A stretch of DNA of 64,000 nucleotides from Ferrimonas sp. YFM (GTDB lineage: Bacteria > Pseudomonadota > Gammaproteobacteria > Enterobacterales > Shewanellaceae): positions 3,162,001 through 3,226,000 of the forward strand of contig NZ_AP027368.1 of the NCBI RefSeq assembly GCF_030296015.1. Direction: 5' to 3'. Below, in pieces: positions 37,040-54,319 of the stretch. Under the pieces are notes generated by a model, which saw nothing but the letters and a program-made list of their open reading frames with translations, did no database searches and was not told the DNA's origin. Position 1 is the first letter of the stretch; each line of letters begins with the position of its first letter. The translations under genes and the position numbers were made by a program.

Positions 37040-37642
37040 ATGAACCGCGCTCACGCAAATCCCGCGCCACTGGGTCTGATGGGATTCGGCATGACCACCA
37101 TACTGCTGAACATCCATAACGCCGGGTTCTTCCCCATCGATGGCATGATTCTGGGTATGGGTATCTTCTTTGGCGGCATCGCTCAGATCATCGCCGGCAT
37201 TATGGAGTACCGCAACGGCAACACCTTCGGTACCACAGCTTTCACCGCTTATGGCTCCTTCTGGCTGACTCTGGTTGCCCTGATCATGCTGCCCAATATG
37301 GATGTGGGCGTCGCAGCCAGCCCTCACCACTTCATGGGTTGGTATCTGAGCCTGTGGGGCCTGTTCACCGGCTTCATGTTCATCGGCACCCTGGCCAACT
37401 ACCCCAGGGTCAAGCAGTTTATCTTCGGTTCTCTGACCGTCCTGTTTTTCCTGTTGGCCGCCCGCGACTTCACCGGCAGCGCCCTGATTGGCACCATCGC
37501 CGGTTACGAGGGCATCGTCTGTGGTGGCGCCGCCTTCTACCTGGCCATGGCCACCATCATTAACGCCGAGTTTGGCCGCACCGTGCTGCCCATCGGTGAT
37601 TGGAAAAGCCGTGCTTCCGTAGGGCGTGCCGCCCTGGCCTGA
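37040..37642 (+). CDS. satP: acetate/succinate transporter SatP (GPR1/FUN34/YaaH family)
   Basis: 200-aa inner-membrane protein with six predicted helices. The family signature NPAPLGLMGFG lies at the N-terminus. These proteins form hexameric channels or proton-coupled transporters for acetate and succinate. The CRP site upstream suggests catabolite control. The gene is convergent with the CO-metabolism cluster, sharing its terminator with cooA. It could export or retrieve acetate, but no link to the coo genes is shown. Confidence 0.9.
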   Translation: MNRAHANPAPLGLMGFGMTTILLNIHNAGFFPIDGMILGMGIFFGGIAQIIAGIMEYRNGNTFGTTAFTAYGSFWLTLVALIMLPNMDVGVAASPHHFMGWYLSLWGLFTGFMFIGTLANYPRVKQFIFGSLTVLFFLLAARDFTGSALIGTIAGYEGIVCGGAAFYLAMATIINAEFGRTVLPIGDWKSRASVGRAALA

Positions 37643-37690: not shown

Positions 37691-38359
37691 TTATGGCTGC
37701 TGACTGAGCAGGGTCTCCATGGCGTCCGGGTCGGGAATCAGGAATTCGCGGCGACTGCGACGCTCCAGCATCCCCTCCTTGATGAGGTTGTTCAGCAGTG
37801 ACGAAGCGGTCTGCCGGGTGGTGCCGATCAACAGGGAGATCTCCTCCATATTGAGATCGCACTCGAAGGCCACTCCCTCACCTTTGGCTTGTCCACGCTC
37901 CTTGGCCAGGGCCAGCAGGAACTCCACTAGGCGGTACTGCACATCGTGGAAGATGATCCCCTCTATCACATCCAGGGTCCCGGCCAGAACCTGCCCCAGG
38001 ATGCCGGTCATCACCAGGGAGACTTCGGGAAAGCGCACCACCTCCTGACGAAAGCGGGAGACACTGATGGCCAGAATGGTGCTCTCCCGGGCCGCCTGGA
38101 TCAGCATCCGGCTGTGGGTGCTGAAGATGTCGCCCGGCTCCAGGAAGGAGAGGGTAAACTCCCTGCCCTCATAGGAGAGGTAGAGCCGAAGCCGCCCGGA
38201 CACCAGGACAAACACCTCGCTCTCCTCGTGACAGGCCTGGTCCAGCAAGCGCCCCCGCGCCAGTTGACGGCAGTGAAAACCGGAAAGAAACCCCTCGTAC
38301 TTGGGCTTTTTCAGCAACTCGATCATGTTGAACCGGGACAGTTTCATCTTGGAGTACAT
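37691..38359 (-). CDS. cooA: CooA-type heme CO sensor, CRP/FNR family
   Basis: 222-aa CRP-family regulator closely resembling CooA of Carboxydothermus and Rhodospirillum. The cyclic-nucleotide-like heme domain carries H82, the proximal heme ligand, in GDIFSTHSRMLIQA. A long dimer helix follows (residues about 110-135), then a helix-turn-helix with the recognition segment IGTTRQTASSLLNNLIKEG. The residue two before the histidine is Ser80, where both characterised CooA proteins have Cys. The N-terminus (MYSKMKLSRFN) has the length of the Carboxydothermus form. On CO binding it should activate coo promoters. It is the last gene of the hydrogenase operon, 36 bp after cooH, so it is probably autoregulated. 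GGAGG sets the start. Confidence 0.88.
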   Translation of the reverse strand: MYSKMKLSRFNMIELLKKPKYEGFLSGFHCRQLARGRLLDQACHEESEVFVLVSGRLRLYLSYEGREFTLSFLEPGDIFSTHSRMLIQAARESTILAISVSRFRQEVVRFPEVSLVMTGILGQVLAGTLDVIEGIIFHDVQYRLVEFLLALAKERGQAKGEGVAFECDLNMEEISLLIGTTRQTASSLLNNLIKEGMLERRSRREFLIPDPDAMETLLSQQP

Positions 38360-38395
38360 CCGGTCCTCCCTCCCTTCAGGTTTCAGATCCCCACA

Positions 38396-39478
38396 CTATC
38401 TTTCCGTGCAGGAGATGCAGGGGTCGATGCTGTTGACCATCAGCGGGACATCCCCCACCTTCTCACCAGTCATCATGGTCTTCAGGGCATCCCAGTTCGG
38501 GTAGCTGGGCACGCGCCACTTCAGGCGCTCCGGCCGGTCTGAACCATCGGTCTTCAGATAGTAGATCAGCTCCCCCCGGGGGGCTTCGCTCTTGGCAATC
38601 GCCTCCCCCGCCGGGATCACCGGCAAACCGCTGATGGCGGTGGGCCCGGCAGGCATCCGCTCCAGGCACTGGCGAATCAGATCCAGGGCCACCAGCACCT
38701 CGTCCAGACGCACCATGGCCCGGGACCAGACGTCGCCGCCGCTGCGGGTCTGAATCTGCATATCCAGCTGATCATAAACCGCATAGGGCGCCTGAACACG
38801 AACATCGTACGCCAGTCCAGAGCCCCTGGCCACAGGTCCCACCAGACCATGATGCTGCACATCCTCCAGGGACAGCACCCCGACGCCCTGAGTCCGGGAC
38901 AACACGAAGTGATTGGAGCCGTAGAGGTCGCGGATCTCCTCCACCGCCGGCACTAACGTGTCGATCTGGGCCAGCAGCCATCGGGTCTGTTCGCCATCCA
39001 CATCGTACTTGACGCCGCCGATGCAGTTGGCCCCCAGGTCCATGCGGTTGCCGTAGATGGTCTCCTTGACGTCCTGCATCACCTCCCGGGTCTCCAGCAC
39101 ATGCATAAACAGGGAATCAAACCCGATGATGTGGGCCATGATCCCCACATTGAACAGGTTGGACGCCACCCGCTTCACCTCGTCGGCGATCACCCTCAGG
39201 TACTGGCCCCGCAGCGGCACTTCGATGCCCGCCAGCGATTCCAGCGCCATGCAGTAGGTGGTGGGGTGGCTGTTGGAGCACAGGGAGCAGAGCCGCTCGG
39301 TCAGGGTGATGTTCTGGTAGAAGTTACGTTTCACCGCCAGGTACTCCAGGCCACGGTGAACGTGGCCGGCGGTGATCTCCAGATCGCGGATGGTCTCCCC
39401 CTCCACCTCCACCTTGAAGTACATGGGCTCCTCCAGGGCCACATGCAGCGGCCCTACCGGGACTTTGTATCCACTCAT
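38396..39478 (-). CDS. cooH: CO-induced [NiFe] hydrogenase large subunit CooH
   Basis: 360-aa catalytic subunit of a group 4 energy-converting hydrogenase reducing protons to H2. Nickel ligands are visible as the N-terminal pair C64/C67 (RLCSLCSNSH) and the C-terminal pair C354/C357 (DPCISCTER). The protein stops three residues after the last Cys, so it has no C-terminal peptide for a maturation protease to remove, as reported for R. rubrum CooH. It is homologous to NuoD of complex I. Its ATG shares one base with the cooU stop. It is followed by cooA. Confidence 0.93.
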   Translation of the reverse strand: MSGYKVPVGPLHVALEEPMYFKVEVEGETIRDLEITAGHVHRGLEYLAVKRNFYQNITLTERLCSLCSNSHPTTYCMALESLAGIEVPLRGQYLRVIADEVKRVASNLFNVGIMAHIIGFDSLFMHVLETREVMQDVKETIYGNRMDLGANCIGGVKYDVDGEQTRWLLAQIDTLVPAVEEIRDLYGSNHFVLSRTQGVGVLSLEDVQHHGLVGPVARGSGLAYDVRVQAPYAVYDQLDMQIQTRSGGDVWSRAMVRLDEVLVALDLIRQCLERMPAGPTAISGLPVIPAGEAIAKSEAPRGELIYYLKTDGSDRPERLKWRVPSYPNWDALKTMMTGEKVGDVPLMVNSIDPCISCTER

Positions 39479-39990
39479 CAGTTCTCTCCTCGGCTGGTCA
39501 TGATCTTCTCCCACAACGACTTAGTGCTGGCGGCATTCACCAGATCCGAGTAGGGGATGAAGCGCTGCAATACGGCGGGGTCGATGCTCTCATCGATAAA
39601 CAGCCGCCGCGGATTGGGGTGCCCGGTCACCTCAATGTCGTACAGCTCCATAAACTCCCGCTCGTTCCAGTCGGCGTTGAGGAACACCGGCGTCATTGAG
39701 GGGATCACCGCCCCCTGCTCCGGCAGCACCACGGTGGCGGTCACCGTGGAGCCGTCCAGGTCGAAGTGGTAGGCGATCTCCAGGTTGGGCGACACCTGGT
39801 AGGCGGTGATGGTGCTCAGCCGGCCCCCCAGCACCTTGACCAGCCGGGCAAACGGCAGCAACTGCTCCGCCTGCTCCAGCCTGGCCCAGGCGACACTGAC
39901 CCCCTTGGCGTCCGTGGTCTGGGTCCAGGACGCCGGCTGTGCCAGGGTATTGCCCAGGCTGGCGGCGAAGCGTTGAAACATGGGGTTCAT
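39478..39990 (-). CDS. cooU: hydrogenase subunit CooU (NuoC-like)
   Basis: 170-aa subunit of the CO-induced hydrogenase, homologous to the NuoC/30-kDa subunit of complex I. The family signature region reads EREFMELYDIEVTGHPNPRRLFIDE. It links the large and small subunits in the peripheral arm. The real start is ATG 39990 (MNPMFQRFAAS); the longer open frame upstream reads through cooX in another phase and is not real. It overlaps cooX by four bases and cooH by one, so translation is coupled. Confidence 0.85.
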   Translation of the reverse strand: MNPMFQRFAASLGNTLAQPASWTQTTDAKGVSVAWARLEQAEQLLPFARLVKVLGGRLSTITAYQVSPNLEIAYHFDLDGSTVTATVVLPEQGAVIPSMTPVFLNADWNEREFMELYDIEVTGHPNPRRLFIDESIDPAVLQRFIPYSDLVNAASTKSLWEKIMTSRGEN

Positions 39991-40499
39991 AGCATCTCTC
40001 CTTTGGTGAGCTGTTGGGCGGAGCGGGCACGGCGGCAGTCCGGGCAGAGCGTGGCCAGGGTGCGGATATCCCCATTGCTGCCCGCGTAGGCCCGCCCCAG
40101 CAAACTGGTGGTGGTCTGGGTGATCTTCCTGCCGCATTCGCCACATGGCAGACGGGGGATCAGATCGTGCTCCACCATGGTGTATTTCTGCGACTGATGG
40201 TGCGCCAGGTGCCAGTCCTCGGTCAGCCGAATCGCCCCGGGAATGCAGTAGTGCTGGCACAGGCCGCAGAAGGTGCAGCTGTTGTGCCAGACGGTGAAGG
40301 TGGTGCCCTCTTGCGTTTCCTCGAATCGAATGGCTCCACCGGCACAGACGTGCTCGCACATGCGACAGGCACTGCAGCGGCTGGCGTCGAAGCGGATGCG
40401 TCCACGCAGTCCTTTCGGCGTAAAGGTGTCGCCGAAGGGGAAGGGATCGGTAGAGGGTCCCTTCTTGAGGTTCTGCCAAAGCAGTTTCAGTATCTTCAT
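39987..40499 (-). CDS. cooX: hydrogenase ferredoxin-like subunit CooX
   Basis: 170-aa electron-transfer subunit with two [4Fe-4S] motifs, CSACRMCEHVC and CTFCGLCQHYC, related to NuoI/EchF. It should pass electrons from CooF to the proximal cluster of CooL. The C-terminal third has an additional four-Cys pattern (CGEC about 119-122 and CPDC about 153-156) that looks like a zinc ribbon or rubredoxin-like knuckle. It overlaps both cooL and cooU by four bases. Confidence 0.88.
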   Translation of the reverse strand: MKILKLLWQNLKKGPSTDPFPFGDTFTPKGLRGRIRFDASRCSACRMCEHVCAGGAIRFEETQEGTTFTVWHNSCTFCGLCQHYCIPGAIRLTEDWHLAHHQSQKYTMVEHDLIPRLPCGECGRKITQTTTSLLGRAYAGSNGDIRTLATLCPDCRRARSAQQLTKGEML

Positions 40500-40936
40500 G
40501 ACGCCTCCTGCAGCCGTTGCTTCCAGATCTCGATGGCCTGGGCCACCCCCTCGAGGATCGCCTGGGGCCGGGGTGGACAGCCGGGGATGTTCACGTCCAC
40601 ATCGAAGTAACGGTCGATGGGACCCTCGATGGCGTAGCTGTCACGAAACACCCCGCCACTGATGGGACAGATCCCCACCGCCACCGTCACCTTGGGATCG
40701 GGGATCTCCTGATACACCCTGAGCACCTTCTCTTTGACCCGGGCGGTGAGGGGACCGGTGATCAGCACGATGTCCGCGTGCTTGGGGCTGCCGCAGTACT
40801 GGCAGCCGAGGCGCTCCACATCGAATCTGGGGATGCAGGCGGTGGTGGCCAGCTCCACATCACAGCCGTTGCAGGAGCCGGCATTGATCCGGTACAGCCA
40901 GGGCGAGCGCGCCGCCACGTTGGAAAACAGAGCCAT
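40496..40936 (-). CDS. cooL: hydrogenase small subunit CooL
   Basis: 146-aa small subunit, homologous to NuoB. It holds the proximal [4Fe-4S] cluster through C22 and C25 (GSCNGCD), C90 (VGICPISGG) and C120 (PGCPPRP). No Tat signal is present, as expected for a cytoplasm-facing group 4 enzyme. ATG 40936, two bases after the cooK stop, was chosen over a longer frame that overlaps cooK and lacks homology. Confidence 0.92.
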   Translation of the reverse strand: MALFSNVAARSPWLYRINAGSCNGCDVELATTACIPRFDVERLGCQYCGSPKHADIVLITGPLTARVKEKVLRVYQEIPDPKVTVAVGICPISGGVFRDSYAIEGPIDRYFDVDVNIPGCPPRPQAILEGVAQAIEIWKQRLQEAS

Positions 40937-40938
40937 GA

Positions 40939-41907
40939 TTACCCCCTTAGAGAGCCGAGCAGCACCAGCGCCAGGCTCAGCACACCGAGCAGCTCGGGCC
41001 ACTTGAAATAGAACAGGAATGCCTGGTCGATGCGCATCCGACCCACCGACGCCCGAAGCAGGGTTTTGGCCAGCAGAAACAGCACCAAGCACTTGAGCAG
41101 ATGGGCGGCCAGGGCGGCGATGCCGGTCAGGGCTCCTGGCCAGAACAGCACCACAGCCAGGCTGAACACCACCACGGTTTTGAGGGTGGACATCAGCTTG
41201 AACATCGCCAGGGCCGGCCCGGAGTACTCCAGCAGCGGCCCCTCGAGCAGTTCAGACTCCGCCTCAGGCACGTCGAAAGGCGGCACGCCGAGGTTGGCGG
41301 GAATGACACTGAGAAACGCCAGCAGCGCCGGCCACAGCCAGGGGTTGGTCACCAGGCTGCCGTTGGCCTGCTGCCAGGCGATGATCTCGGTCAGGCTGAG
41401 GCAGATGACCCCACCCTGGGCAACGCCAACGTGGATGGCCACACTGAGCAGCACCAGCAGCAGCGGCCCCTCATAGGCCAGCATCATGCTCATCTCCCGT
41501 GAGAAGCCGATGGCACCGAAGGTGGAGCCGGAGACCGAGCCGCTGAGCATGATCACCACCGCCGGCACCGCCAGCAGGTAGAGCAGCACCAGCATGTCCC
41601 CCAACTGGGCCGGCGGCTGATACCAGCCGGGCACAGGCACCAGGGCCAGGGCCACCGCCATGGCGCAGACGCCGGCGGCAGGCAGATAGAGAAACAGCGC
41701 CGCAAAACTGCCCTGGGGCACCATGGAGTGCTTTCGCATCAGCTTGGCCACGTCATAGAAGGGCTGCAGCAGCGGCGGTCCTACGCGCCGCTGCAGGCGG
41801 GCCAGCAGGATGCGATCCACCCCCTTGGCCAGCAGCCCGATAACCAGGCCGGCGGTCGCCACCACCATCACCCAGATGGGGAGCAGCAGGGACTCAAATT
41901 GATTCAT
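40939..41907 (-). CDS. cooK: hydrogenase membrane subunit CooK (NuoH-like)
   Basis: 322-aa integral membrane protein with about eight helices. Homologous to NuoH/HycD, the subunit joining the peripheral arm to the ion-pumping arm. The conserved acidic loop NLGVPPFDVPEAESELLEGPLLEYSGP and the RVGPPLLQPFYDVAKL segment are both intact. It overlaps cooM by four bases and is followed two bases later by cooL. Confidence 0.93.
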   Translation of the reverse strand: MNQFESLLLPIWVMVVATAGLVIGLLAKGVDRILLARLQRRVGPPLLQPFYDVAKLMRKHSMVPQGSFAALFLYLPAAGVCAMAVALALVPVPGWYQPPAQLGDMLVLLYLLAVPAVVIMLSGSVSGSTFGAIGFSREMSMMLAYEGPLLLVLLSVAIHVGVAQGGVICLSLTEIIAWQQANGSLVTNPWLWPALLAFLSVIPANLGVPPFDVPEAESELLEGPLLEYSGPALAMFKLMSTLKTVVVFSLAVVLFWPGALTGIAALAAHLLKCLVLFLLAKTLLRASVGRMRIDQAFLFYFKWPELLGVLSLALVLLGSLRG

Positions 41908-44900
41908 GATTCTCTCCGTTTAAAGGGTCCGGCCAGAGCGCGCAGCAGCGCTTTGGGGGATTCGTAGAGGGCGGCGGCGCCCATGTGGCTGTCCGCATCG
42001 CTCAGGTCCTCGACGCCACAGGCGTGATGGTGAATCGCCACTCGCTGGGGGGCGCTGAGGCGATAAAATCCCCAGCAGGCCAGGGCCGGCAGCAGCAGAG
42101 ACAGGGTCAGCAGCCAGGAGGACCAGCCTCCGGGCAGCGGCCCCCACAGGCTCACCTGAGGTGCGGTCATCCCCAGTGAGGTGACGATGGCGGCAATGGG
42201 CACCAGCGCCAGACCGGGGAAGAGTCCCAGACCCAGGCAGGCAGCGGCGGTCAGCACCATGGGCCAGGCCATGGAGGTCGGGGCCTCTTTCAGGTGTGCC
42301 AGCCCAGGTGAAGGCCGTCCCAGGAAGGCCACATGGGCAAACTTGAGCACCGCCGCCAGGGTGAACAGGCTGGACATCAGGGTGGCCAGGGCAAACAGGT
42401 AGTGGCCGGATTGCAGGCTGGCCTGATAGATAAGCCACTTGGAAGCAAAGCCATTGAGCGGCGGTATCCCCGCCAGCGACAGCCCGGCGAACAGGAACAG
42501 GCCGAAGGTCAGTGGCATCTGCCGTCCCAGTCCGCCCAGGTCATCCAGGCTGTGCAGGTGCGCCTGGGCCAGAATCACCCCGGCGCCCATAAACAGCAGG
42601 TTCTTCAGCAGCATGTGGTTCACAAAATGCAGCAAGCCGGCGCTGATGCCCAGGGGGGTCAGCAGGGCCAGGCCCAGCAACACATAGGCCAGCTGGCTGA
42701 CGGTGCTGTAGATAAGCAGCCGCTTGATGCCGGTCTGGATCATCGCCATCGCCCCGGCCCCCAGCAGGGTCACCGCCGCCACCAGGGCCACCAGGAAGGC
42801 GGGCCAGGGCAGGCCTTGCACCTCGCCGAAGCGGGCCGCCAGGGTGGTGATGCCGATGGCTCCGAAGAACTTGAGCATGCCGAAGGGGCCACTCTTGAGC
42901 AGCACCGCCGAGATGTAACCACTGACCGGCGTCGGCGCCGTCGGCGGGTGCATCTGCACATCGATGCGCAGCGGCAGCTGGGCGGCCTTCATCAGCAGCC
43001 CCGCCAACACCAGCACCAGGGCGGAGGCGCTCCAGGCTAGTGGCATCGCCTCCAGCCTCTGCCCCAGCCCTTCGAACGCCAACTCACCTGAGGGGGCCGC
43101 CAGCATCACTGTCCCCAGGAACAGGCAGCTGGCCCCGGCCAGATTGAACATCAGGTATTTGAATCCCTCATCCAGGGCATCGTCGCTCTCCTCGTGGATG
43201 ATGGCGAAATAGAGGGCCCAGCTGCTCATTACCTCCCAGAACAGGAAGAAGTTGAACAGATCGCGGCTGGCACAGATCCCCAGCAGGCCGCCAATCATCA
43301 ACAGGAAGAACATCAGGAACCTGGGCAGGCTGTGACCGTGGGCCATGTAGCCCTTGGAGTAGGCCAGGCTCAGCAGTCCTACGGCGGCGATCAGCAGGGC
43401 GAACCACCAGGAAAGCGGGTCAAACTGCTGGGAGTGCTGCAGCACCATCACCAAAGACAGCGCCATCACCGCCAGGGCAACAGGCACCGCCAGGGCGGGC
43501 ACCCGCTTACCCAGCAGATACACCGCCGGGGCGCCGATGCAGGCCACCAGCGCCGCCCAGGACCACTCCAGCGACAGGGAGAGAAGCTCGCCCCCCGCAG
43601 GGGAGAGCTGCGCCACCACCGGCTGAACCAGACCCAGCACCGCATCGGGGAACAGCCCCGCCGCCAGCACCAGAGCCGCCAGCAGCAGTTGCGGCAACAG
43701 CATCCCGACGGGGGCTTCGGTTGCCTCCGTCTGAGCCGGGGTGAAGAACAGCACCCGGAAGATGCGCAGGTAGTAGACGGCGCCAATCAGGCTGCCCAGC
43801 AGGATCACCACCGGCAGCACCAGGTTGCCCTGGTCAACGGCGGCGTAAATCATCAGATACTTGGAGAAGAAACCGCTGAATGGCGGAAGCCCCATGATCG
43901 CCAGCAAACCGACGGCCAGACAGGCCCCGGTGATGGGCATCCGCCGGCCGGCGCCGGCCAGATCGGCCAGGGTTTTGCTGCCATAGCGGTAGATGATGGA
44001 GCCGGCACAGAGAAACAGCAGACTCTTGAAGATGGCGTGATTGAGCAGATGAGCCAGGCCTGCGGTCAGGGCCAGGTAGCTGGCCAGCCCCAGCACCGCG
44101 GTGATCTCACCCACCTGGGCCAGGGTGGAGAACGCCAGCATCCGCTTGAGATCCGGTTCGCGCAGGGCCGCCAGTTCACCGTAGATCAGGGTCACCGCAC
44201 CCAGCAGGGTGATCACCAGTGGAATGGAGAGGGCCCCCTCCCCCGCCAGCCGCGACAGGGCGGCGGACCCGAACACCAGAAACAGCAGCTTCAGGATGCC
44301 GTACAGGCCCACCTTGGTGAGGATGGCTGACATGGGTGCGGAGATGGAGGAGGGTGCCACAGGATGGGCATCAGGCAGCCAGCCATGGGCGGGCCACAGC
44401 CCCGCCTTGACCCCCAGGCCCACCAGGAAGCAGGCGAGGATCACCAGGGCCTCCCCAGGGGGCAGCTGCCCGGCCGCCGCAGCCAGCTGGGCAAATTCGA
44501 AACTGCCCAGGTTGGCGTGCAACAGCAGGATGCCGAAATGCATGATGTAGGCGCCGCCGGCGCACATCAGAAAGTACTTACGTCCCGCCTGCAGCGCCTT
44601 GGGAGTGCGGGGGTGGATCACCAGCAGATAGGAGGTCCAGGTCATCAGCTCCCAAAACAGGTAGAAGTTACCCAGATCCGTTGCGGTGACCACCCCCAGC
44701 AGGGAACCGAGCATCAGCAGCAGGAAGAAGTAATAGAGGTTGGCCCTGGGGTCTTTGCGCATATAGGGGCCGGAGTAGACGCAGACCACCAGCATCACCA
44801 GCATCACCAGGGCGATGATCACGGCGAACAGCCAGGAAAGGCCATCGGCCATGGGCAGCTGCCAGGCCATCACCAGGGTGACGGCGGCCACCGCCTGCAC

Positions 44901-45662
44901 CATCAGATCCCGCAATCTGGGGCTGAAGTGCCCCAGCAGGAACACCCCGAAACCACTCAGGTAGGGCAGCAGCACCAGGGCCTGCCAGGGGGACTCGAAC
45001 CTGGGCATGCCATGGCCCTCAGTCAGGCCGTTGAGGGCACCGACCCAGTGCAGCAGCGGCTCGGGATCCAGGCTCAGCAGCACAGTAGTCAGGGCCGCGA
45101 TCAGCATCAGCAGCAGACTGGCCGCCCCCTGCCCCGCCTCGCTCAGCACCGGACGGCTGGCCGGGGCACCGAAACAGACTTTGTGGATCACCGTCACCGT
45201 GTAGATGGCCGCCACTATCCCCGCCAGGGTGGCGGTGACCGCCAAGGCCCAGTGGCCCTGGTCCACGGCGGCGTACAGGATGATGAACTTGCTGAAAGCC
45301 CCCTTGAAGGGGGAGAGCCCCATCACCGAGAACAGGCCAAAGCCGAACATCAGCCGGCTCAATGGCATCTGGGGCGCCACCTCGGCCACCCGGTCCAGGC
45401 GGTCGCTGCCGGCGGCCCGAATCAGCCGCCAGGCCGCCAGGATCACCAGCAGCCGCATCACCGCCTGCAGGGCCAGATGGAACCAGGCGCCAGTCTGAGC
45501 CAGGGGCTCGCCCAGCCCCAGGCCCATGATCAGGTAGCCCAGCTCGGCGGCGGTGGCGTAGAGCAGCAGCCTGCCAAGACTGGCTCGGTTGCGCAGGGCC
45601 CACAGCTCCCCGAGCAACAGCAGCCCGGCACCCAGCCAGGCCAGAATGGAAAACTCTCCCAT
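41904..45662 (-). CDS. cooM: large antiporter-like hydrogenase subunit CooM
   Basis: 1252-aa polytopic protein with roughly 30-35 helices, matching the very large CooM of R. rubrum. It consists of repeated NuoL/M/N-like modules. The segment G-[LI]-P-P-F-x-G-F-x-S-K-[YW]-x-x-[IY]-Y occurs three times (MGLSPFKGAFSKFIILYA, MGLPPFSGFFSKYLMIYA, AGIPPLNGFASKWLIYQA), so it has one partial and two full modules. The second module has the antiporter motif HGWLPDAHPVAPSS. It probably pumps protons or sodium while H2 is made. ATG 45662 was chosen for GAGG six bases upstream; in-frame ATGs at 45668 and 45674 are possible. First gene of its operon. Confidence 0.9.
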   Translation of the reverse strand: MGEFSILAWLGAGLLLLGELWALRNRASLGRLLLYATAAELGYLIMGLGLGEPLAQTGAWFHLALQAVMRLLVILAAWRLIRAAGSDRLDRVAEVAPQMPLSRLMFGFGLFSVMGLSPFKGAFSKFIILYAAVDQGHWALAVTATLAGIVAAIYTVTVIHKVCFGAPASRPVLSEAGQGAASLLLMLIAALTTVLLSLDPEPLLHWVGALNGLTEGHGMPRFESPWQALVLLPYLSGFGVFLLGHFSPRLRDLMVQAVAAVTLVMAWQLPMADGLSWLFAVIIALVMLVMLVVCVYSGPYMRKDPRANLYYFFLLLMLGSLLGVVTATDLGNFYLFWELMTWTSYLLVIHPRTPKALQAGRKYFLMCAGGAYIMHFGILLLHANLGSFEFAQLAAAAGQLPPGEALVILACFLVGLGVKAGLWPAHGWLPDAHPVAPSSISAPMSAILTKVGLYGILKLLFLVFGSAALSRLAGEGALSIPLVITLLGAVTLIYGELAALREPDLKRMLAFSTLAQVGEITAVLGLASYLALTAGLAHLLNHAIFKSLLFLCAGSIIYRYGSKTLADLAGAGRRMPITGACLAVGLLAIMGLPPFSGFFSKYLMIYAAVDQGNLVLPVVILLGSLIGAVYYLRIFRVLFFTPAQTEATEAPVGMLLPQLLLAALVLAAGLFPDAVLGLVQPVVAQLSPAGGELLSLSLEWSWAALVACIGAPAVYLLGKRVPALAVPVALAVMALSLVMVLQHSQQFDPLSWWFALLIAAVGLLSLAYSKGYMAHGHSLPRFLMFFLLMIGGLLGICASRDLFNFFLFWEVMSSWALYFAIIHEESDDALDEGFKYLMFNLAGASCLFLGTVMLAAPSGELAFEGLGQRLEAMPLAWSASALVLVLAGLLMKAAQLPLRIDVQMHPPTAPTPVSGYISAVLLKSGPFGMLKFFGAIGITTLAARFGEVQGLPWPAFLVALVAAVTLLGAGAMAMIQTGIKRLLIYSTVSQLAYVLLGLALLTPLGISAGLLHFVNHMLLKNLLFMGAGVILAQAHLHSLDDLGGLGRQMPLTFGLFLFAGLSLAGIPPLNGFASKWLIYQASLQSGHYLFALATLMSSLFTLAAVLKFAHVAFLGRPSPGLAHLKEAPTSMAWPMVLTAAACLGLGLFPGLALVPIAAIVTSLGMTAPQVSLWGPLPGGWSSWLLTLSLLLPALACWGFYRLSAPQRVAIHHHACGVEDLSDADSHMGAAALYESPKALLRALAGPFKRRES

Positions 45663-45695
45663 GGTCATCCTCATCTTGTTGTCGTTGTCAGGCCC

Positions 45696-45738
45696 ACTCT
45701 AGGCCTGAGCGGTCACCCCATCTGTCAGCGGGCTGACA
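45696..45738 (-). promoter_or_regulatory. CooA-dependent promoter of cooMKLXUH-cooA
   Basis: A perfect inverted repeat TGTCA-GCGGGC-TGACA (45723-45738) matches the 5-6-5 form of known CooA sites. On the minus strand a TAGAGT -10 element lies at 45696-45701, putting the start near 45689 and the site centre near -42, the class II position used by CooA and CRP. There is no good -35, as expected for an activator-dependent promoter. Confidence 0.75.
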
Positions 45739-45786
45739 GGGGGCAACCCGAATTCAGAAAACGTTGCGCCCATCACCCTTTGGGTG

Positions 45787-45811
45787 AAAAAAAGGGGCGC
45801 CTCTGCGCCCC
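45787..45811 (-). terminator. terminator of the hypA-cooFSCT-hypB operon
   Basis: On the minus strand GGGGCGC and GCGCCCC pair around AGAG, followed by seven T residues, three bases past the hypB stop. It separates the two coo operons. Confidence 0.92.
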
Positions 45812-45814
45812 GGT

Positions 45815-46549
45815 TCAGGGTGTCAGCCGCTGCTGCAGCCAGCTCAGCCAGGCGGCCATCCCCTCGCCGCTTTTGGCGGAGATGGGCAGGGTCTGCTCCT
45901 CCAACCCCAGGGTCTTGAGGTAGTGCTCGGCCCCCGGAAGGCTGAAATCATCGAAATGGGCCAGCAGATCCAGCTTGGTGATCAGCACCAGGTCTGCCGC
46001 GCGGAACATCACCGGATACTTGGCCGGTTTGTCCTCCCCTTCGGTGACCGACAGCAGCACCAGGTTGAGGTGCTGCCCCAGATCAAACCCGGCCGGGCAC
46101 ACCAGGTTGCCGACGTTTTCGATGAACAGCAGATCCAGCTCATCCAGGGGCAGGCTGTGCAGGGCGTCGTACACCATGTGGGCGTCAAGGTGACAGGCCA
46201 TCCCTGTGGTGATCTGCACCACGGGCACCCCCTTGGCGGCGATGCGCTGGGCGTCGTTCTCCGTTTCCAGATCCCCCTCAATCACCCCGGCGCGAATCCC
46301 CAGCGCCTTGAGCTGCTCCAGGGTCTCCTCCAGCAACCGGGTCTTGCCGCTGCCCGGAGAGGACATCAGGTTGATGGCCAGAATGTTGTGACGCTCCAGG
46401 TGCTCCCGGTTGTGCGCCGCCTGGTGGTCGTTTTCGTCCAACAGGCCGGTAAGAAGCTGCACCGCATCGCCGGGCCGGTGCAGGTGGCCTCCGGGTTCCA
46501 CCAGGTGTTGATTTCCCGGTGTCAGGTTACAGCCGCAGTTGTTGCACAT
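45815..46549 (-). CDS. hypB: hydrogenase nickel incorporation GTPase HypB
   Basis: 244-aa GTPase that delivers nickel to the hydrogenase large subunit with HypA. The N-terminal high-affinity nickel motif CNNCGC (2-7) is present, then a modest His-containing segment (HLHRPGD, DENDHQAAHNREHLERHN). The G1 motif is MSSPGSGKT, and the metal-site Cys/His of the G domain appear in TTGMACHLDAH and NLVCPAGFDLG. It ends the upstream coo operon. Its inclusion with hypA in a CO-dehydrogenase operon means nickel handling for hydrogenase is induced together with CooS. Confidence 0.95.
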   Translation of the reverse strand: MCNNCGCNLTPGNQHLVEPGGHLHRPGDAVQLLTGLLDENDHQAAHNREHLERHNILAINLMSSPGSGKTRLLEETLEQLKALGIRAGVIEGDLETENDAQRIAAKGVPVVQITTGMACHLDAHMVYDALHSLPLDELDLLFIENVGNLVCPAGFDLGQHLNLVLLSVTEGEDKPAKYPVMFRAADLVLITKLDLLAHFDDFSLPGAEHYLKTLGLEEQTLPISAKSGEGMAAWLSWLQQRLTP

Positions 46550-46559
46550 GGCCGCCTCC

Positions 46560-46790
46560 TCACTCTTGTTCGGTCTGTTGAGGCACCCGCGACAGGGTGC
46601 GGTTCAGGGCTTCGCCGGTGCAGCGCATCTGCTCCACCACCTCCAGCAGGGAGTCCGCCAGTTCCGCCAGCTCAAAGCGAATCAGCTGCTCGCGCCAACG
46701 CTCCATCTCGCTGATGTGGGCCTGGTTGTGCTCCTCCCAATGGGGCAGCAGGGTGTGGATACGCTGGATCAGTTGCTGCTGCGGGTTCAT
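46560..46790 (-). CDS. CooJ-like nickel-binding protein lacking the His-rich tail
   Basis: 76-aa helical protein at the position of cooJ in R. rubrum. The N-terminal half has the pattern HTLLPHWEEHNQAHISEM, with histidines spaced as in the H-W-x-x-H-N-x-x-H motif of CooJ-type helical domains that bind nickel. The remainder is a predicted helix hairpin. The histidine-rich C-terminal tail of R. rubrum CooJ is absent; the protein ends RVPQQTEQE. It overlaps cooT by four bases and lies 10 bp before hypB. The likely role is nickel storage or delivery to CooS. Homology is inferred from motif and position. Confidence 0.65.
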   Translation of the reverse strand: MNPQQQLIQRIHTLLPHWEEHNQAHISEMERWREQLIRFELAELADSLLEVVEQMRCTGEALNRTLSRVPQQTEQE

Positions 46791-46984
46791 GGGGCCTCCA
46801 CCGGCTCTAAGTGGATCTGACCCTGCATCATGTCCAGCAGGGTGATGCGGTAGCCCGCCAGTGTCCTGGGGGCGTCAAACAGGGTCTCCAGGCTGAGGCC
46901 GGGGGGGATCACCTCCACCCGGCTGACCTGGGAGACCTCCTCCCAGCCATGGGCGTGTTTGATTCGGGCGGTGAAGTTACACAT
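46787..46984 (-). CDS. cooT: nickel-binding CO dehydrogenase accessory protein CooT
   Basis: 65-aa protein resembling the small homodimeric CooT of R. rubrum. It begins Met-Cys: in R. rubrum Cys2 is the nickel ligand, and it is kept here. The remainder is a short beta-rich fold (VEVIPPGLSLETLFDAPRTL, ITLLDMMQGQIHLEPVEAP). It helps mature the nickel site of CooS. It overlaps cooC by eight bases and the CooJ-like gene by four, so translation is coupled. Confidence 0.85.
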   Translation of the reverse strand: MCNFTARIKHAHGWEEVSQVSRVEVIPPGLSLETLFDAPRTLAGYRITLLDMMQGQIHLEPVEAP

Positions 46985-47753
46985 GGGTCAGCTCCTGTTG
47001 CAGTTGAGATTGGATGGCGGCGGCCTGAGCCACAAAGGGGCCCTGACAATCGAAGGGGGCCAATCCCTGGCGGTCGGCGGCGCGCAGGGCTTCGCTCCAG
47101 CTGAGGTGCCCCAGCAGCCTGCGCCCGGGCCCCAGCCGCTCACGAATGAAGGCCAGATCCTCCTCGCCCTGAACCTTGCCCGCCACGAAGGCTACCCGGG
47201 CGATGCCCAGCTCCCTGGCCAGGGCTTCCGCCTGTTCGGCGGTCTGCAGGCTGCGCTGGCCCGGCTCCACCACCACCAGCAGCATGTCCACCGCCTCGGC
47301 GGTGCCCCGCCCCAGGTGTTCGATGCCGGCCTCCATGTCCATCACCACCCACTCGTTCCCCTTAACCAGCAACTGGCGCATCAGGGCGCGCAACAGGGTG
47401 TGTTCTGGGCAGACGCAGCCGCCACCGGCTTGCTCGACACTGCCCATCTTCAGCAGCTTCACTCCCTGATGCTCCAGGGCGAAACGCTCCGGCAGATCCG
47501 CCACCGACGGATTGAGCTTGAACAAGCCGCTGCCGTTGGCGCCGGTGCGCTCCTTGGCCAGGGATTTCATCTGGGAAAAGGGGACCAGCCCGGCCGCCCG
47601 CTGTGCGTCGATGCCGACGGCTCCCGCCAGGTTGGCATCCGGGTCGGCGTCCACCGCCAGCACCTTGAAACCCTGCTTGGCCAGGCCTCTGGCCAGCAGG
47701 CCCGCCAGGGTGGTCTTCCCCACCCCGCCTTTGCCCGTTATGGCAATCTTCAT
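46977..47753 (-). CDS. cooC: CO dehydrogenase maturation ATPase CooC
   Basis: 258-aa MinD/SIMIBI-class ATPase needed to insert nickel into CooS. The deviant Walker A GKGGVGKTT (7-15), the DADPDANLA switch motif and the dimer-bridging metal site C113-x-C115 (GGGCVCPEHTLL) are all visible. It sits directly after cooS, as in R. rubrum cooFSCTJ. Confidence 0.95.
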   Translation of the reverse strand: MKIAITGKGGVGKTTLAGLLARGLAKQGFKVLAVDADPDANLAGAVGIDAQRAAGLVPFSQMKSLAKERTGANGSGLFKLNPSVADLPERFALEHQGVKLLKMGSVEQAGGGCVCPEHTLLRALMRQLLVKGNEWVVMDMEAGIEHLGRGTAEAVDMLLVVVEPGQRSLQTAEQAEALARELGIARVAFVAGKVQGEEDLAFIRERLGPGRRLLGHLSWSEALRAADRQGLAPFDCQGPFVAQAAAIQSQLQQELTHV

Positions 47754-47796
47754 CGCTTCTCTCCTTAGGGGGAGGCACGCCTCCCCCAGTCTCGGA

Positions 47797-49707
47797 TTAC
47801 AGGCCCAGTGCGGCGCGCTTACGGCGAATCACCTCCACCAGCTTGTCGCCGGCGGCATCCGGGTCGGTCTCCACCAGGAAGTAACCGCCAAACAGCTGCT
47901 CGGCCCCCTGGGTCATCAGATCGGTCACCACCTGGGAACCGGTCACCTGAGGCATGGTGCCCAAATGTGTCGGCAGCCCCAGGGCCACGGACCAGGAGGC
48001 GATGGCTACCGCCTTCTCCGACATCGCTTCCGGTGCCGAAGCCACCAGAGGCAGATCGCTCAAGTCCAGATCCAGACGTTTCGCCAGGGCGGTCGCCAGG
48101 GAGACGGCGCGGCTGTTGTCCACACAGGAGCCCATGTGCAGCACCAGGGGCAGAGGTCCGCCCAGGCCGGCGGCTTCACCGATGGCGGTCAGCACCGCCT
48201 TGAGCCCGTCACCGGCGTAAGCCTCGGTGGCCTCCTGATTCATCAGGCCATTTTTGGCAAAGGCCCCTGCGCCGCAGCCGGTGGCCAGCAGCAGTACGTT
48301 GTTGGCGGCCAGCTTCTCGGCAATTTTCTGGTAGCTGTTGTCCTGAACGCTCTGGGTGTTGTTGCAGCCGGCGAACAGGGCAATACCCTGGATGTTGCCG
48401 TTGGTGAGGTTATCCAGCAGTGGCTTGAGCGGATCCTCGGCGTCCACCTTGGACAGGGCCTCCACCACCGCTTCGGCGGAGAAGCCCACCACGGCGGTGC
48501 GCTTGATGTCGGGGATGTTGATCTTCTTGGGATCCCGGCGGCGGAAAGCGTCGATGGCCAGGCGAATCACCTGGGAGGCGTTCTCCCGGGCGTCCTCCTC
48601 GCGGAAGGGCACATGACGGGCCCCCTGCATCTTGTTGTCCCCCATGGTGGTGATCACCTCGGTGTGGAAGCAGTCCCCCACCTGGGGCAGTGACGGCATG
48701 ATGCACTGCACGTCCACCACCATGGCGTCCAGGGCGCCGGTGAGGATCGCCATCTCCTGGCTGAGGTAGTTGGTGGCCAGGGGCACGCCATGGCGCATCA
48801 TCACCTCGTTGCCGGTACAGCAGATGCCGACGATGTTGATCCCCTGGGGGGCACCGGCGGCGATCGCTTCCTGATTCAGCTCGTCGGCCATCTCACAGAT
48901 CACTTCACTGAGCAGGGGGTTGTGGCCATTGACGGCGATGTTGACCGCGGCGGCGTTGATCACCCCGATGTTGGCCTCGGTCACCACAGGGGACGGGGTA
49001 CCGAACATGGCATCGGAGAGTTCGGTGGCCAGGGTCATGCCATTGAAGTCCGCCAGGGCCCCCTTGACCCCACCCAGGAACAGGTTGGTGGGGTCGGCGT
49101 CGCAGCCGATGTGAGTGCGGGCCATGATCTGGGCCACGGTGGCGTCGATGTTATGGGGCAGAGCGTGCAGAGACTCCAGCTTCTCCAGCCGCTTGGGCGG
49201 CAGGCTGGCCTGGATCCAGCGACATGGCGTGTCATGGTCCTGGTTCTGATAATCCTCCAGGGTCAGGGTGGCCACCTCGTGAGCCAGGGAGAGGGTATCC
49301 CGGCCGGCGGTGTCGATGCCCAGTCGCTGGGCCAGAGCCTCCAGTTTCTTGGGATCGCGAATGGAGTACGCAGGCAGCTCGCCTTTGCCTACCCGCTGCA
49401 TCGCCAGGGCGATGTGACGGCCGTGCTCGGAGTGGGCGGCGGCGCCGGCGGCCATCATCCGCACCACGTTGCGGGCGGCGATGGTGTCGCGGTTGGCGCC
49501 GCAGATCCCCTCACTGGGGCCATCGCCAAAGGGGTCGATGCGACAGGGCCCCTTCCAACACACCCGGCAACACAGACCCAGGGAGCCAAAGCCGCACTGG
49601 GGCTGCTGCGCCTGATGACGGTCGAATACGGTGGCAATCCCCTCACGCTCTGCCACGGGACAGAGGGCGGCAACTGCCTGATCTACAGATTTCACTTTAA
49701 TTTCCAT
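47797..49707 (-). CDS. cooS: anaerobic Ni-Fe carbon monoxide dehydrogenase CooS
   Basis: 636-aa homodimeric enzyme oxidising CO plus water to CO2, two protons and two electrons. All cluster ligands can be placed. D and B cluster cysteines are C38, C46, C47, C50, C55 and C69. C cluster (NiFe4S4) ligands are H262 (VNGHNP), C296 or C297, C335 (VDVQC), C448 (FAGCNN), C478 (ATGCGA) and C528 (MGSCVDN). The acid-base lysine is K565 (SEKAVAIASW). The spacing is that of the Carboxydothermus and R. rubrum enzymes. No acetyl-CoA synthase genes accompany it, so the role is CO oxidation, not carbon fixation. Its ATG shares one base with the cooF stop. Confidence 0.97.
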   Translation of the reverse strand: MEIKVKSVDQAVAALCPVAEREGIATVFDRHQAQQPQCGFGSLGLCCRVCWKGPCRIDPFGDGPSEGICGANRDTIAARNVVRMMAAGAAAHSEHGRHIALAMQRVGKGELPAYSIRDPKKLEALAQRLGIDTAGRDTLSLAHEVATLTLEDYQNQDHDTPCRWIQASLPPKRLEKLESLHALPHNIDATVAQIMARTHIGCDADPTNLFLGGVKGALADFNGMTLATELSDAMFGTPSPVVTEANIGVINAAAVNIAVNGHNPLLSEVICEMADELNQEAIAAGAPQGINIVGICCTGNEVMMRHGVPLATNYLSQEMAILTGALDAMVVDVQCIMPSLPQVGDCFHTEVITTMGDNKMQGARHVPFREEDARENASQVIRLAIDAFRRRDPKKINIPDIKRTAVVGFSAEAVVEALSKVDAEDPLKPLLDNLTNGNIQGIALFAGCNNTQSVQDNSYQKIAEKLAANNVLLLATGCGAGAFAKNGLMNQEATEAYAGDGLKAVLTAIGEAAGLGGPLPLVLHMGSCVDNSRAVSLATALAKRLDLDLSDLPLVASAPEAMSEKAVAIASWSVALGLPTHLGTMPQVTGSQVVTDLMTQGAEQLFGGYFLVETDPDAAGDKLVEVIRRKRAALGL

Positions 49708-50282
49708 CAGGGTTTCCTCAGTGTCAGGGTCATGTGTTTCTGGGATTGGGCCAGCTCTTTGGCCCGGGCCTGGATCAGTGCCGTACGGTAGGCTTTCATC
49801 TCCACCAGACGGATCGCCTTGGTAGGACAGGCTTCGACACAGGCTGGGTCACTCTTACCGGTCTGTGCCCGCCAGTCACGGCAGAGATCGCACTTGAGCG
49901 CCACCCCCTGGTTGTTGCTGCCGTCAGCCTGGCGATGACCGTCGCGACGCACCGTGATGGCACCGAAAGGACACACCATGACGCACAGCTTGCAGCCGAC
50001 ACAGCTCTCCTCGGTGATCTGCACCTGGCCATCCTGCTGACGACAGGCGCCGGTGGGGCACACCATGGTGCAGGGGGCGTTTTCACATTGACGACACTGC
50101 ATGGGCATCATCACCTGATCGCTGACCACCACCTTGGTGCGGGAGTGCAGGGGCTTGCGCTCGCGCACCGCCTCCACCAGACTCCCGCCACCGTGGGCCA
50201 CCGCGCAGGCAAGCTCACAACTATGACAACCCAGGCAGCGCTCTGCGTCGGCATAGATGATGACGTTTTCCGTTTCTCTCAT
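49707..50282 (-). CDS. cooF: CO dehydrogenase iron-sulfur electron-transfer protein CooF
   Basis: 191-aa polyferredoxin of the four-cluster DmsB/HycB type. Cysteine motifs are CLGCHSCELAC, CRQCENAPCTMVC, CVGCKLCVMVC and a final CDLC...CVEAC pair. It carries electrons from CooS to the hydrogenase (through CooX). It is co-transcribed with cooS with a one-base stop/start overlap. No signal peptide, so it works in the cytoplasm. Confidence 0.93.
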   Translation of the reverse strand: MRETENVIIYADAERCLGCHSCELACAVAHGGGSLVEAVRERKPLHSRTKVVVSDQVMMPMQCRQCENAPCTMVCPTGACRQQDGQVQITEESCVGCKLCVMVCPFGAITVRRDGHRQADGSNNQGVALKCDLCRDWRAQTGKSDPACVEACPTKAIRLVEMKAYRTALIQARAKELAQSQKHMTLTLRKP

Positions 50283-50296
50283 AGCTTTCGCCTTCT

Positions 50297-50635
50297 TCAG
50301 ATCTCAAAGCTCTCAATGAACAGCTCCTCGCCCTGAGTCAGTTGCAGCGACGTACTGTCACAGCCGGGACAACGGAAACAGAACCGCCGCACCTGAAACG
50401 ACTCAGAACACTCGAGGCAGGTGGCCCGGGCCTCCACGGTGTCGATCACCAGTTCCGCCCCCTCCAGTACCGTGTCCCTGACAAACATCTCGAAGCAGAA
50501 ACGCAAAGAGTGGGGTTCCACCGCCTTTAATCGACCCACCTTGAGGGTGACCCGGCTGACCGAGTCCACCCCAAGCTCTGAAGTACGGCTCAGCAGTATC
50601 TTCACCAGCCCTTGGGTTAAAGCCGCTTCATGCAT
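50297..50635 (-). CDS. hypA: hydrogenase nickel incorporation protein HypA
   Basis: 112-aa nickel chaperone. It begins MHEAALTQGL with the nickel ligand His2, and has the Cys4 zinc site CLEC...CPGC near residues 73-92. Together with HypB it loads nickel into CooH. ATG 50635 was chosen so that the conserved Met-His-Glu is at the N-terminus; an upstream GTG is ignored. It is the first gene of the CooA-controlled operon, 14 bp before cooF. HypC, D, E and F are not in this window. Confidence 0.94.
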   Translation of the reverse strand: MHEAALTQGLVKILLSRTSELGVDSVSRVTLKVGRLKAVEPHSLRFCFEMFVRDTVLEGAELVIDTVEARATCLECSESFQVRRFCFRCPGCDSTSLQLTQGEELFIESFEI

Positions 50636-50670
50636 CACCGTGTCTCCTGAACAACGTTGGGTTCACAGGC

Positions 50671-50713
50671 ATGAAACCCCAGGGGGAATGGGATTACTGT
50701 CGGCTGGATGACA
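50671..50713 (-). promoter_or_regulatory. CooA-dependent promoter of hypA-cooFSCT-hypB
   Basis: TGTCG-GCTGGA-TGACA (50698-50713) is a CooA-type 5-6-5 inverted repeat with one mismatch between arms. A weak TTTCAT -10-like element lies at 50671-50676 on the minus strand, putting the site near -42. It sits between the cymA-like gene terminator and hypA. Confidence 0.65.
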
Positions 50714-50808: not shown

Positions 50809-51381
50809 TCAAGGCTTCTTGTGAGCCACCTTGTACTTGTGGCAGTCGATGCAGGTCTTGCCCATCTTGTCCATCTTCTGGTGCATCTTGGCGGCCACCT
50901 TCTTCTGCTTGTCGAAGTTCATCCGCTCCACATCGTGACAGGTGCGGCACTCACGGGAATCGTTGGCCTTCATCTCGGCGATGATGCGGGCAGCGCCATC
51001 TTTCTTGTAGGCGAGGAACTCGTCCTTGGTGGTGATCTCGCCCTTGAGCTCCAGGTAGACCTCCTTCATGGCGGAGATCTTGCGGATCATCTTAGGCACG
51101 AACTCCTTGGAGACGTGGCAGTCGGCACAGTTGACCACCATGCCGGAGGCGCTGGTGCCGTGCTTGCTCAGGGCCACCTCTTCGGCGGCAAAGGAGGGCA
51201 CATGGCAATTGACGCAGAAGGCGTCACTGCTGGTGGCGTGCAGCACGGTGTTGAAACCCACGGTACCCACGGCACCCACGGCCACCGCCAGGAAGGCGCC
51301 CAGGGGAATACCCAGTAACCACTTGGACTTAGGCTGCTTCCACAGTTTGGACCAACCGGATTCTTGTTGGTTGTTGTTCAT
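50809..51381 (-). CDS. CymA/NapC/NirT-family tetraheme quinol dehydrogenase
   Basis: 190-aa inner-membrane cytochrome. One N-terminal helix (about 20-42) anchors a periplasmic domain with four CxxCH sites (CVNCH, CADCH, CRTCH, CIDCH). The stretch TVLHATSSDAFCVNCHVPSF closely resembles Shewanella CymA. Such proteins oxidise menaquinol and pass electrons to periplasmic carriers. Its position next to decaheme genes suggests it feeds the MtrA/tetraheme route. It lies divergently from the first decaheme lipoprotein gene and just upstream of, but insulated from, the CO operon. Confidence 0.88.
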   Translation of the reverse strand: MNNNQQESGWSKLWKQPKSKWLLGIPLGAFLAVAVGAVGTVGFNTVLHATSSDAFCVNCHVPSFAAEEVALSKHGTSASGMVVNCADCHVSKEFVPKMIRKISAMKEVYLELKGEITTKDEFLAYKKDGAARIIAEMKANDSRECRTCHDVERMNFDKQKKVAAKMHQKMDKMGKTCIDCHKYKVAHKKP

Positions 51382-51719
51382 CTCTCATCCTCAAAAAAAC
51401 AGCGCCGCCTCAAAGGGAGGCGGCAAGATAAAATCGGTGTGAGCAAATTTTAATGAGGGTAAAAATGCAACATAATGATAGAGTTCACAGAACATCCAAC
51501 TGCAAAGTCACAGGCATCACAAGCTGAGATCCTGATCATCTTTTGGGCCGGACGCCAACCCCTCGGTTTCACCGAAACCCGACCCAAGCTTTATCTTTTT
51601 CAAATCAGTACCTAATGTTGAATGAGCCGGGTTCAATGTCAGTATTTTTTAACATTGCTGACAGCAAACTGAACTCCACTCACTGTTTTTGCAATATCAA
51701 GTTTAAACTTTTGCAATTG

Positions 51720-51733
51720 TTGACGTTGATCAC
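51720..51733. promoter_or_regulatory. FNR-like site upstream of the decaheme cluster
   Basis: TTGAC-GTTG-ATCAC matches the FNR consensus TTGAT-N4-ATCAA at 8 of 10 defined positions. It is about 107 bp before the decaheme start codon. Confidence 0.45.
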
Positions 51734-51779
51734 GACGGTTAACCAGAGGTCTGGGGTATCTTCGTGGTGTTCATTATGC

Positions 51780-51797
51780 ATACCTAAATTTAGGTAT
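51780..51797. promoter_or_regulatory. perfect 18-bp palindrome upstream of decaheme gene
   Basis: ATACCTAAATTTAGGTAT reads the same on both strands. It ends 36 bp before the decaheme start codon, so it lies in the promoter or early leader. No known regulator is recognised. Confidence 0.6.
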
Positions 51798-51833
51798 ATG
51801 CATGAACAACCTAAACATTGCAGGGAAAAAGTA

Positions 51834-54065: not shown

Positions 54066-54084
54066 GGCATAACGCCTGACCATG

Positions 54085-54110
54085 AAGCGGCCCACCGGGC
54101 CGCTTTTTTT
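54085..54110 (+). terminator. terminator of first decaheme gene
   Basis: GCGGCCC and GGGCCGC pair around ACC, followed by seven T residues. Confidence 0.92.
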
Positions 54111-54319
54111 GTGCCGACGCCGGCCCGATGAAATTGTTTCAAAATGTCTGTAAAGATCGCCAAATGTGGAAAGATTGACCAACACCCACACAAAAAGTCG
54201 GTCTTTTAACTCGGTTTTTCAGATTTAAAAGCAGCCCTGTCCGGGCTTTTCGCTGAACCCTGGCTGAACCGGCAAGAAACGCCGTTCACATTTCCCTTTT
54301 TTGCAACTAAGTTATTGCC

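Follow-up and report, generated by a model that had tools for sequence, protein, structure and literature searches.

A probable CooA-controlled carbon monoxide dehydrogenase and energy-converting hydrogenase system in the marine bacterium Ferrimonas sp. YFM

Can a marine bacterium equipped for metal respiration also convert carbon monoxide (CO) into carbon dioxide and hydrogen, and save energy by doing so? The question is raised by a stretch of 64,000 nucleotides (nt) from Ferrimonas sp. YFM (contig NZ_AP027368.1, positions 3,162,001 to 3,226,000; hereafter the window, meaning this whole stretch), the minus strand of which holds 14 coo and hyp genes at 37691–50638. In order of transcription these are hypA, cooF, cooS, cooC, cooT, cooJ and hypB, followed by cooM, cooK, cooL, cooX, cooU, cooH and cooA. 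The best reading of the locus is a CO dehydrogenase (CODH) coupled to an energy-converting hydrogenase (ECH) under the control of the CO sensor CooA, which would evolve H2 from CO with conservation of energy; we put its probability at roughly 0.87. It is preferred because the genes are intact and match their expected families, the metal ligands are kept, CooA boxes and a terminator-like hairpin are in place, the boxes recur in congeners, the ratios of non-synonymous to synonymous substitution (dN/dS) are low and the activity is known from Citrobacter Y19; the presence elsewhere in the genome of hypD, hypF, hypC and hypE-like genes and of an uptake hydrogenase argues in the same direction.

The first putative operon opens with hypA (50297–50638), encoding a nickel chaperone (TIGR00100, 97 bits against a cut-off of 88) that starts at GTG, or at an ATG one codon later. 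It is followed by cooF (49707–50282), whose product is a multi-[4Fe-4S] electron-transfer protein with 17 Cys residues, most of them in ferredoxin-type motifs, and by the adjoining cooS (47797–49707), which encodes a Ni-Fe CO dehydrogenase of 636 amino acids (aa; TIGR01702, 765 bits, cut-off 478). At positions that we take from the numbering of ChCODH-II, CooS keeps all 12 cluster ligands checked (D-cluster 2/2, B-cluster 4/4 and C-cluster 6/6) together with the acid–base residues H92 and K565; one of the four positions in the His series of the proton path (H102) is occupied by Leu. Of 628 positions aligned with Rhodospirillum rubrum CooS, 415 (66%) are identical, as are 352 of 629 in the alignment with Carboxydothermus hydrogenoformans CODH-II, and in a tree for which no sequences were chosen from other CODH clades CooS falls within a gammaproteobacterial group, apart from R. 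rubrum. Cys38, Cys46 and Cys47 form a type II D-cluster motif (Cys-X7-13-Cys-Cys) and the active site is complete, the combination by which clade F Ni-CODHs are defined (PMC6344411). The remaining genes of this operon concern nickel: cooC (46977–47753) encodes a P-loop ATPase for nickel insertion, and cooT (46787–46984) a small nickel protein with Cys2. The name of cooC comes from its place in the operon and from the analogous gene of described coo clusters; a family-model scan gave MinD/ParA-family matches of which none exceeded its cut-off. The cooJ-like gene (46560–46790; 76 aa) is named from its position and from an HWx2Hx3H motif, which we assume to be the CooJ nickel site. Its product lacks the His-rich C-terminal domain that R. 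rubrum CooJ possesses (PMC6006190). The operon ends with hypB (45815–46549), encoding a nickel-inserting GTPase (TIGR00073, 263 bits, cut-off 121).

A spacer of 140 nt, containing a terminator-like hairpin 3' of hypB (45794–45811, minus strand; consensus scan) and a CooA box, separates hypB from the second putative operon, and the same scan found a further hairpin 3' of the cymA-like gene, upstream of hypA. All six subunits of the energy-converting hydrogenase are encoded here. They comprise the 1256-aa antiporter-like membrane subunit CooM (41904–45674) with three Proton_antipo_M stretches, the NuoH-like membrane subunit CooK (40939–41907; PF00146), the NuoB-like hydrogenase small subunit CooL (40496–40936; PF01058), the ferredoxin-like CooX (39987–40499) with two 4-Cys motifs, the NuoC-like CooU (39478–39981; PF00329) and the [NiFe] hydrogenase large subunit CooH (38396–39478), in which both CxxC pairs (64–67 and 354–357) are kept; the Pfam matches of CooM, CooK, CooL, CooU and CooH are thus to antiporter, complex-I and hydrogenase families, as expected. 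The closest solved relatives of CooH are formate hydrogenlyase subunit 5 and the alpha subunit of membrane-bound hydrogenase (MBH), and as CooH ends in DPCISCTER without an extension, a C-terminal protease should be unneeded. Last in the operon, 36 nt behind cooH, lies cooA (37691–38359), encoding a CRP/FNR-family haem CO sensor recognized by its similarity to known CooA proteins. The original prediction had described the named Coo parts as present and intact in two co-directional operons, with every cluster ligand of CooS retained, and all of this is borne out: the genes share one strand, none of the 14 translations contains an internal stop and a CooA box precedes each operon. Its statement that stop and start codons overlap throughout was too strong, as 6 of the 12 within-operon junctions overlap, by 1–8 nt (cooF/cooS, cooC/cooT, cooT/cooJ, cooM/cooK, cooL/cooX and cooU/cooH), and the other six are gaps of 2–43 nt, counted from the listed ATG starts of cooL, cooU and cooH.

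The CooA boxes bear on regulation. The consensus TGTC(A/G)N6(C/T)GACA (PMC5371261), given in near-identical form in PMC6085454, has 16 matches in the 4.66-Mb genome, against six for a reversed control pattern. Two of the 16 lie in the window, one ahead of each operon: box 1, TGTCATCCAGCCGACA, at 50698–50713, 5' of hypA, and box 2, TGTCAGCCCGCTGACA, at 45723–45738, 5' of cooM (neither is assigned a strand). The CO-hydrogenase operator of Citrobacter Y19 has 18 fixed bases (PMC5371261), and the region of box 2 agrees with it at 17 of them. Both boxes are letter-identical in Ferrimonas futtsuensis, boxes stand at both operons in F. kyonanensis and F. sediminum, and the box at the first operon is present in F. 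aestuarii. Exact boxes were also found in all eight non-Ferrimonas genomes scanned (nine loci), their placement being judged from gene order only. A wider CooA regulon was considered and set aside: 12 of the other 14 genomic boxes fall inside open reading frames (ORFs) of at least 100 aa on either strand, the exceptions being L165 and L174, and no further CooA target is claimed. The L165 box (G000 777655–777670) lies 58 nt 5' of a 593-aa membrane-protein-like ORF; its letters occur once in F. futtsuensis, and it may belong to another regulator. Because cooA is the last gene of an operon that it is itself expected to control, positive feedback is predicted.

CooA itself scores 172 bits against C. 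hydrogenoformans CooA-1 and 135 bits against R. rubrum CooA. It is a CRP/FNR-type protein that keeps the haem-binding His (His77 of R. rubrum) and carries Ser at the position of R. rubrum Cys75, which places it outside the R. rubrum redox-switch subtype. R. rubrum CooA exchanges Cys75 for His77 upon reduction; in the C. hydrogenoformans protein the ligands are Ala2 and His82, and no such exchange takes place (PMC6955866). Ser or Thr at this position with the His kept was found in 11 of 11 gammaproteobacterial genomes (15 of 43 alignment rows, some genomes appearing twice), and Cys in 8 of 43 rows, seven of them alphaproteobacterial; a further 13 low-scoring rows are poorly aligned at this site and may not be CooA. 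C. hydrogenoformans CooA-1, the closer scorer, does carry Cys there in the pairwise alignment. From this residue pattern, the window CooA is predicted to be a sensor without a redox switch.

Selection on the genes can be read from congeners. Between the window and F. futtsuensis, dN/dS is 0–0.19 in all 13 genes tested (cooT was left out), and against F. aestuarii it is 0.02–0.13; the coo-cluster genes are under purifying selection, and given the values in these 13 genes the cluster is not a chance occurrence. Further maturation genes lie elsewhere. The genome contains one HypD gene, which is adjacent to hypF, hypC and a gene with an AIRS domain that we regard as hypE. This group adjoins a membrane-bound uptake [NiFe] hydrogenase, for which a cytochrome b subunit and a maturation protease are also encoded (L101, G000 3.787–3.807 Mb). 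A second hypA–hypB pair lies at about 3.827 Mb, so that the one in the coo cluster is additional.

Taken together, these parts suggest the following course of events. Without oxygen, CO would bind the haem of CooA, and CO-bound CooA would bind both boxes and activate the two operons, cooA among their genes. Nickel would come from CooC, CooT, CooJ, HypA and HypB, and the products of the hyp genes around the sole HypD gene would provide the CN/CO ligands of CooH. CooS would oxidize CO with water to CO2, CooF would pass the electrons to CooX and CooL, and CooH would reduce protons to H2, whilst CooM and CooK may export ions and so conserve energy. The H2 might then be lost, or be re-oxidized by the separate membrane-bound uptake hydrogenase.

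The host belongs to Ferrimonas and stands next to F. futtsuensis (rpoB DNA identity 96.9%). CooS is found at 83% identity or above in 5 of 14 Ferrimonas genomes; seven others give short weak matches, probably to hybrid cluster proteins, and two give none. CooH at 76% or above occurs in 6 of 152 genomes of the family, namely the five Ferrimonas and one genome of another genus (G092), probably a Shewanella, in which all 14 genes were matched, cooT and cooJ weakly. Gene order was compared across 25 clusters (the window, G092 and 23 fetched loci in which CooS was matched). The hypA–cooFS and cooMKLXUH groups are divergent in eight of them: G092, two Photobacterium, Sodalis, Symbiopectobacterium, one Enterobacterales bin and two Azospirillum. 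Twelve are co-directional with the hydrogenase genes first (alphaproteobacterial, Desulfovibrio-like and Pelotalea loci, with cooM unmatched in L021 and L068), and the co-directional order with the CODH operon first was seen in five, all of them Ferrimonas. A further 13 loci, mostly betaproteobacterial, carry a CooMKLXUH-type hydrogenase with a divergent hypA, often with hypB, and lack a CooS match in the DNA fetched, which for some loci is cut off by a contig end (L028, L031, L033, L034, L039, L041, L042, L044, L045, L046, L054, L080 and L085); these are perhaps hydrogenases of the same family with a different electron donor.

The position of the cluster bears on how it came to be there. In the window, F. 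futtsuensis, F. kyonanensis and F. sediminum it lies between the cymA-like gene and satP-feoA-feoB; in F. aestuarii, satP-feoAB and the coo cluster are on different contigs, and of six ORFs flanking the cluster there, four have Pfam matches to a binding-protein-dependent ATP-binding cassette (ABC) transporter and two have no matches. The nearest coo-free relative, G009 (cymA-like 95%, rpoB 94.8%), has an empty site, with the cymA-like gene and satP-feoA-feoB adjacent and about 260 nt apart. Its comparison with the window showed similarity at the cymA-like end and the following hairpin and otherwise no clear match; no mobile-element scars were evident from it, no search having been aimed at integrases or tRNA genes. 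A plasmid origin was also tried and rejected: CooH gave 248 matches among 72,556 plasmid records, all below 60% identity and none a close relative, and among the best 30 of the 248 identity is at most 46%, the annotated ones being other hydrogenases or complex-I subunits.

Two trees disagree over F. aestuarii. In the coo tree, built from 12 proteins and 4137 columns with some absent from outgroups, this species falls with the window and F. futtsuensis (support 100/100), whereas rpoB plus gyrA place it with F. kyonanensis and F. sediminum (99.4/99). In topology tests on seven taxa, the coo data reject both alternative topologies (approximately unbiased (AU) test, p < 1e-40). With the core data, which consist of two genes, the coo topology is rejected in the AU test (p 0.023) and retained in the Kishino–Hasegawa (KH; 0.057) and Shimodaira–Hasegawa (SH; 0.10) tests; these data do not distinguish F. 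aestuarii with F. kyonanensis and F. sediminum from a basal F. aestuarii (AU 0.56 versus 0.50). Identities agree with the conflict: the 12 coo proteins of the window are 80–97% identical to those of F. aestuarii, with FeoB at 76%, whereas against F. kyonanensis the values are 65–92% and 85%. Because the trees conflict and the identities follow the same pattern, one or more transfers or replacements of the cluster probably took place within Ferrimonas. As the same site is occupied in two coo lineages, either a single old insertion was followed by loss in G009 and by replacement, or insertion was repeated.

F. kyonanensis (L152:8948–10162) and, at the same place, F. sediminum (L150) have a gene for a 404-aa protein between hypB and cooM. 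It contains Fer4_5 and dicluster ferredoxin domains and is probably a membrane polyferredoxin, through which CooF might have another route to the quinone pool. The hypB–cooM gap is too short for such a gene in the window, F. futtsuensis and F. aestuarii.

Beyond the coo genes, the flank at 50809–59485 encodes a NapC/NirT (CymA-like) cytochrome, an MtrB porin and an MtrC-type protein, together with a multihaem protein whose position suggests MtrA, and it includes a large multihaem ORF at 51543–54065; the original description of a gammaproteobacterium with metal-respiration genes is therefore apt. The anaerobic growth or energy conservation on CO that was read from the locus at the same time is an inference. 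On the other side, a gene for a GPR1/FUN34/YaaH-family transporter (37040–37642) converges on cooA, 48 nt apart. The coo-bearing clade (6 of 6 species) has such a gene at the feoAB locus, whereas the 8 other stretches fetched have none.

Several observations count against a CooA-controlled CODH–ECH. No CooA box was found within two mismatches in the hypB–cooM interval of F. aestuarii, a simple scan gave no sigma-70-like promoter at either operon, CooT has a sub-threshold Pfam match (PF10133, 21 bits against a cut-off of 27), CooJ has no NCBIfam or Pfam match at E 0.001, and 9 of the 14 Ferrimonas genomes do without CooS, so that the trait is dispensable. That patchiness, with the probable movement between species, could suggest a passenger that is decaying or silent, a view made highly improbable by 14 genes free of internal stops, by dN/dS of 0–0.19 in 13 of them and by the conserved boxes. 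A different matter is the use to which the same mechanism is put, since it would also be compatible with the scavenging of trace or internal CO for the survival of resting cells deprived of acceptors, rather than with growth. This role has been argued for the Ni-CODH/ECH of Anoxybacillaceae (PMC13077300). Also in its favour, F. futtsuensis is named as a facultative anaerobe (PMC8159138), and the genome of the window carries Mtr-type genes for other acceptors. In the bacilli, however, expression is CO-independent with predicted control by Rex (PMC13077300), whereas the cooA gene and CooA boxes here indicate CO as the signal; a survival role is a real possibility, to be held tentatively.

It is also conceivable that CO electrons go mainly to respiration with metals or other acceptors, either straight from CooF or by way of H2 and its uptake hydrogenase, with little net H2. 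Geobacter sulfurreducens grows on CO and fumarate with very little H2 (PMC4703632), the coo cluster adjoins cymA-like and mtr-type genes, the genome encodes an uptake hydrogenase with cytochrome b, and two congeners have the polyferredoxin gene. Against this, purifying selection acts on each of the six ECH subunits, the window cluster lacks a polyferredoxin gene in the hypB–cooM interval, and G009 has the same flanking genes without the cluster, so the flanks did not arrive with it; a mainly respiratory sink is accordingly rated unlikely. More speculative still, and rather improbable, is that coo forms a movable add-on to metal respiration, in which CO would yield H2, the uptake hydrogenase would feed quinones and these the CymA-like and Mtr proteins, and a switch-less CooA would allow CO to induce the genes even at the higher potentials of metal-oxide respiration. 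If true, CO would fuel extracellular electron transfer in coastal sediments. The CooA-controlled CODH–ECH remains the preferred reading, and this marine bacterium very probably converts CO to CO2 and H2 with a saving of energy. It would place a complete, selected and apparently CO-inducible water-gas-shift system in marine facultative anaerobes with metal-respiration genes, and the coo-bearing and coo-free sister species, with the same flanks and with bearers in culture collections, offer a natural comparison for the role of CO-driven proton reduction.

How far does the system resemble those already known? The R. rubrum cooMKLXUH/cooFSCTJ/cooA system has the same protein set and CooA box consensus; it differs in that the window CooS branches apart, CooA is without Cys75 and CooJ is without the His-rich tail. 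Gene order and the position of hypB differ as well. The original label of R. rubrum type hence fits the gene content better than the descent, given the closer score of CooA to C. hydrogenoformans CooA-1 and the gammaproteobacterial grouping that emerged from the CooS phylogeny it had proposed. The comparison of Ferrimonas and Shewanella coo loci, proposed with it, revealed the same gene set and chromosomal place in F. futtsuensis, F. kyonanensis and F. sediminum (cooT of F. kyonanensis was unmatched); the coo proteins of F. futtsuensis are 92–100% identical to those of the window, and the other two species differ by the extra polyferredoxin gene. The CODH–ECH clusters of these three species were tabulated in 2019 in a list that also names Citrobacter Y19, Photobacterium marinum and two strains of Shewanella, among others, and that enters hydrogenogenic growth for Ferrimonas as ‘n.r’ (PMC6687684, Table 2), and the hydrogen potential of F. 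futtsuensis is described as known from genomic analyses only (PMC8159138). The surprise attached to the locus was therefore overstated, since Ferrimonas clusters are already in print (PMC6687684; PMC8159138), and the system is not new in kind, being tabulated in Ferrimonas and active in Citrobacter Y19; what is added here is the distribution of cooS (5/14), together with the empty site, the probable movement within the genus, the co-directional CODH-first order and the CooA residue, these last four not being claimed as unpublished, as no search was aimed at them. Carboxydocella thermautotrophica likewise has a CooA-controlled CODH–ECH and one strain also reduces Fe(III), but it is a thermophilic clostridium with six CODHs and measured activity (PMC6085454). 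CO-to-H2 activity has also been shown in Citrobacter amalonaticus Y19, where CO-induced H2 formation is attributed to CooA (PMC5371261); for the window system it is predicted. The operons of Y19 are divergent, with a first gene named hypC (PMC5371261), and those of the window are co-directional. Y19 also has two CooA-controlled operons, a CODH operon with cooC, cooT, cooJ and hypB (PMC6006190) and a CO-hydrogenase operon from cooM onwards, and the two bacteria share a near-identical 9-2-9 operator (PMC5371261).

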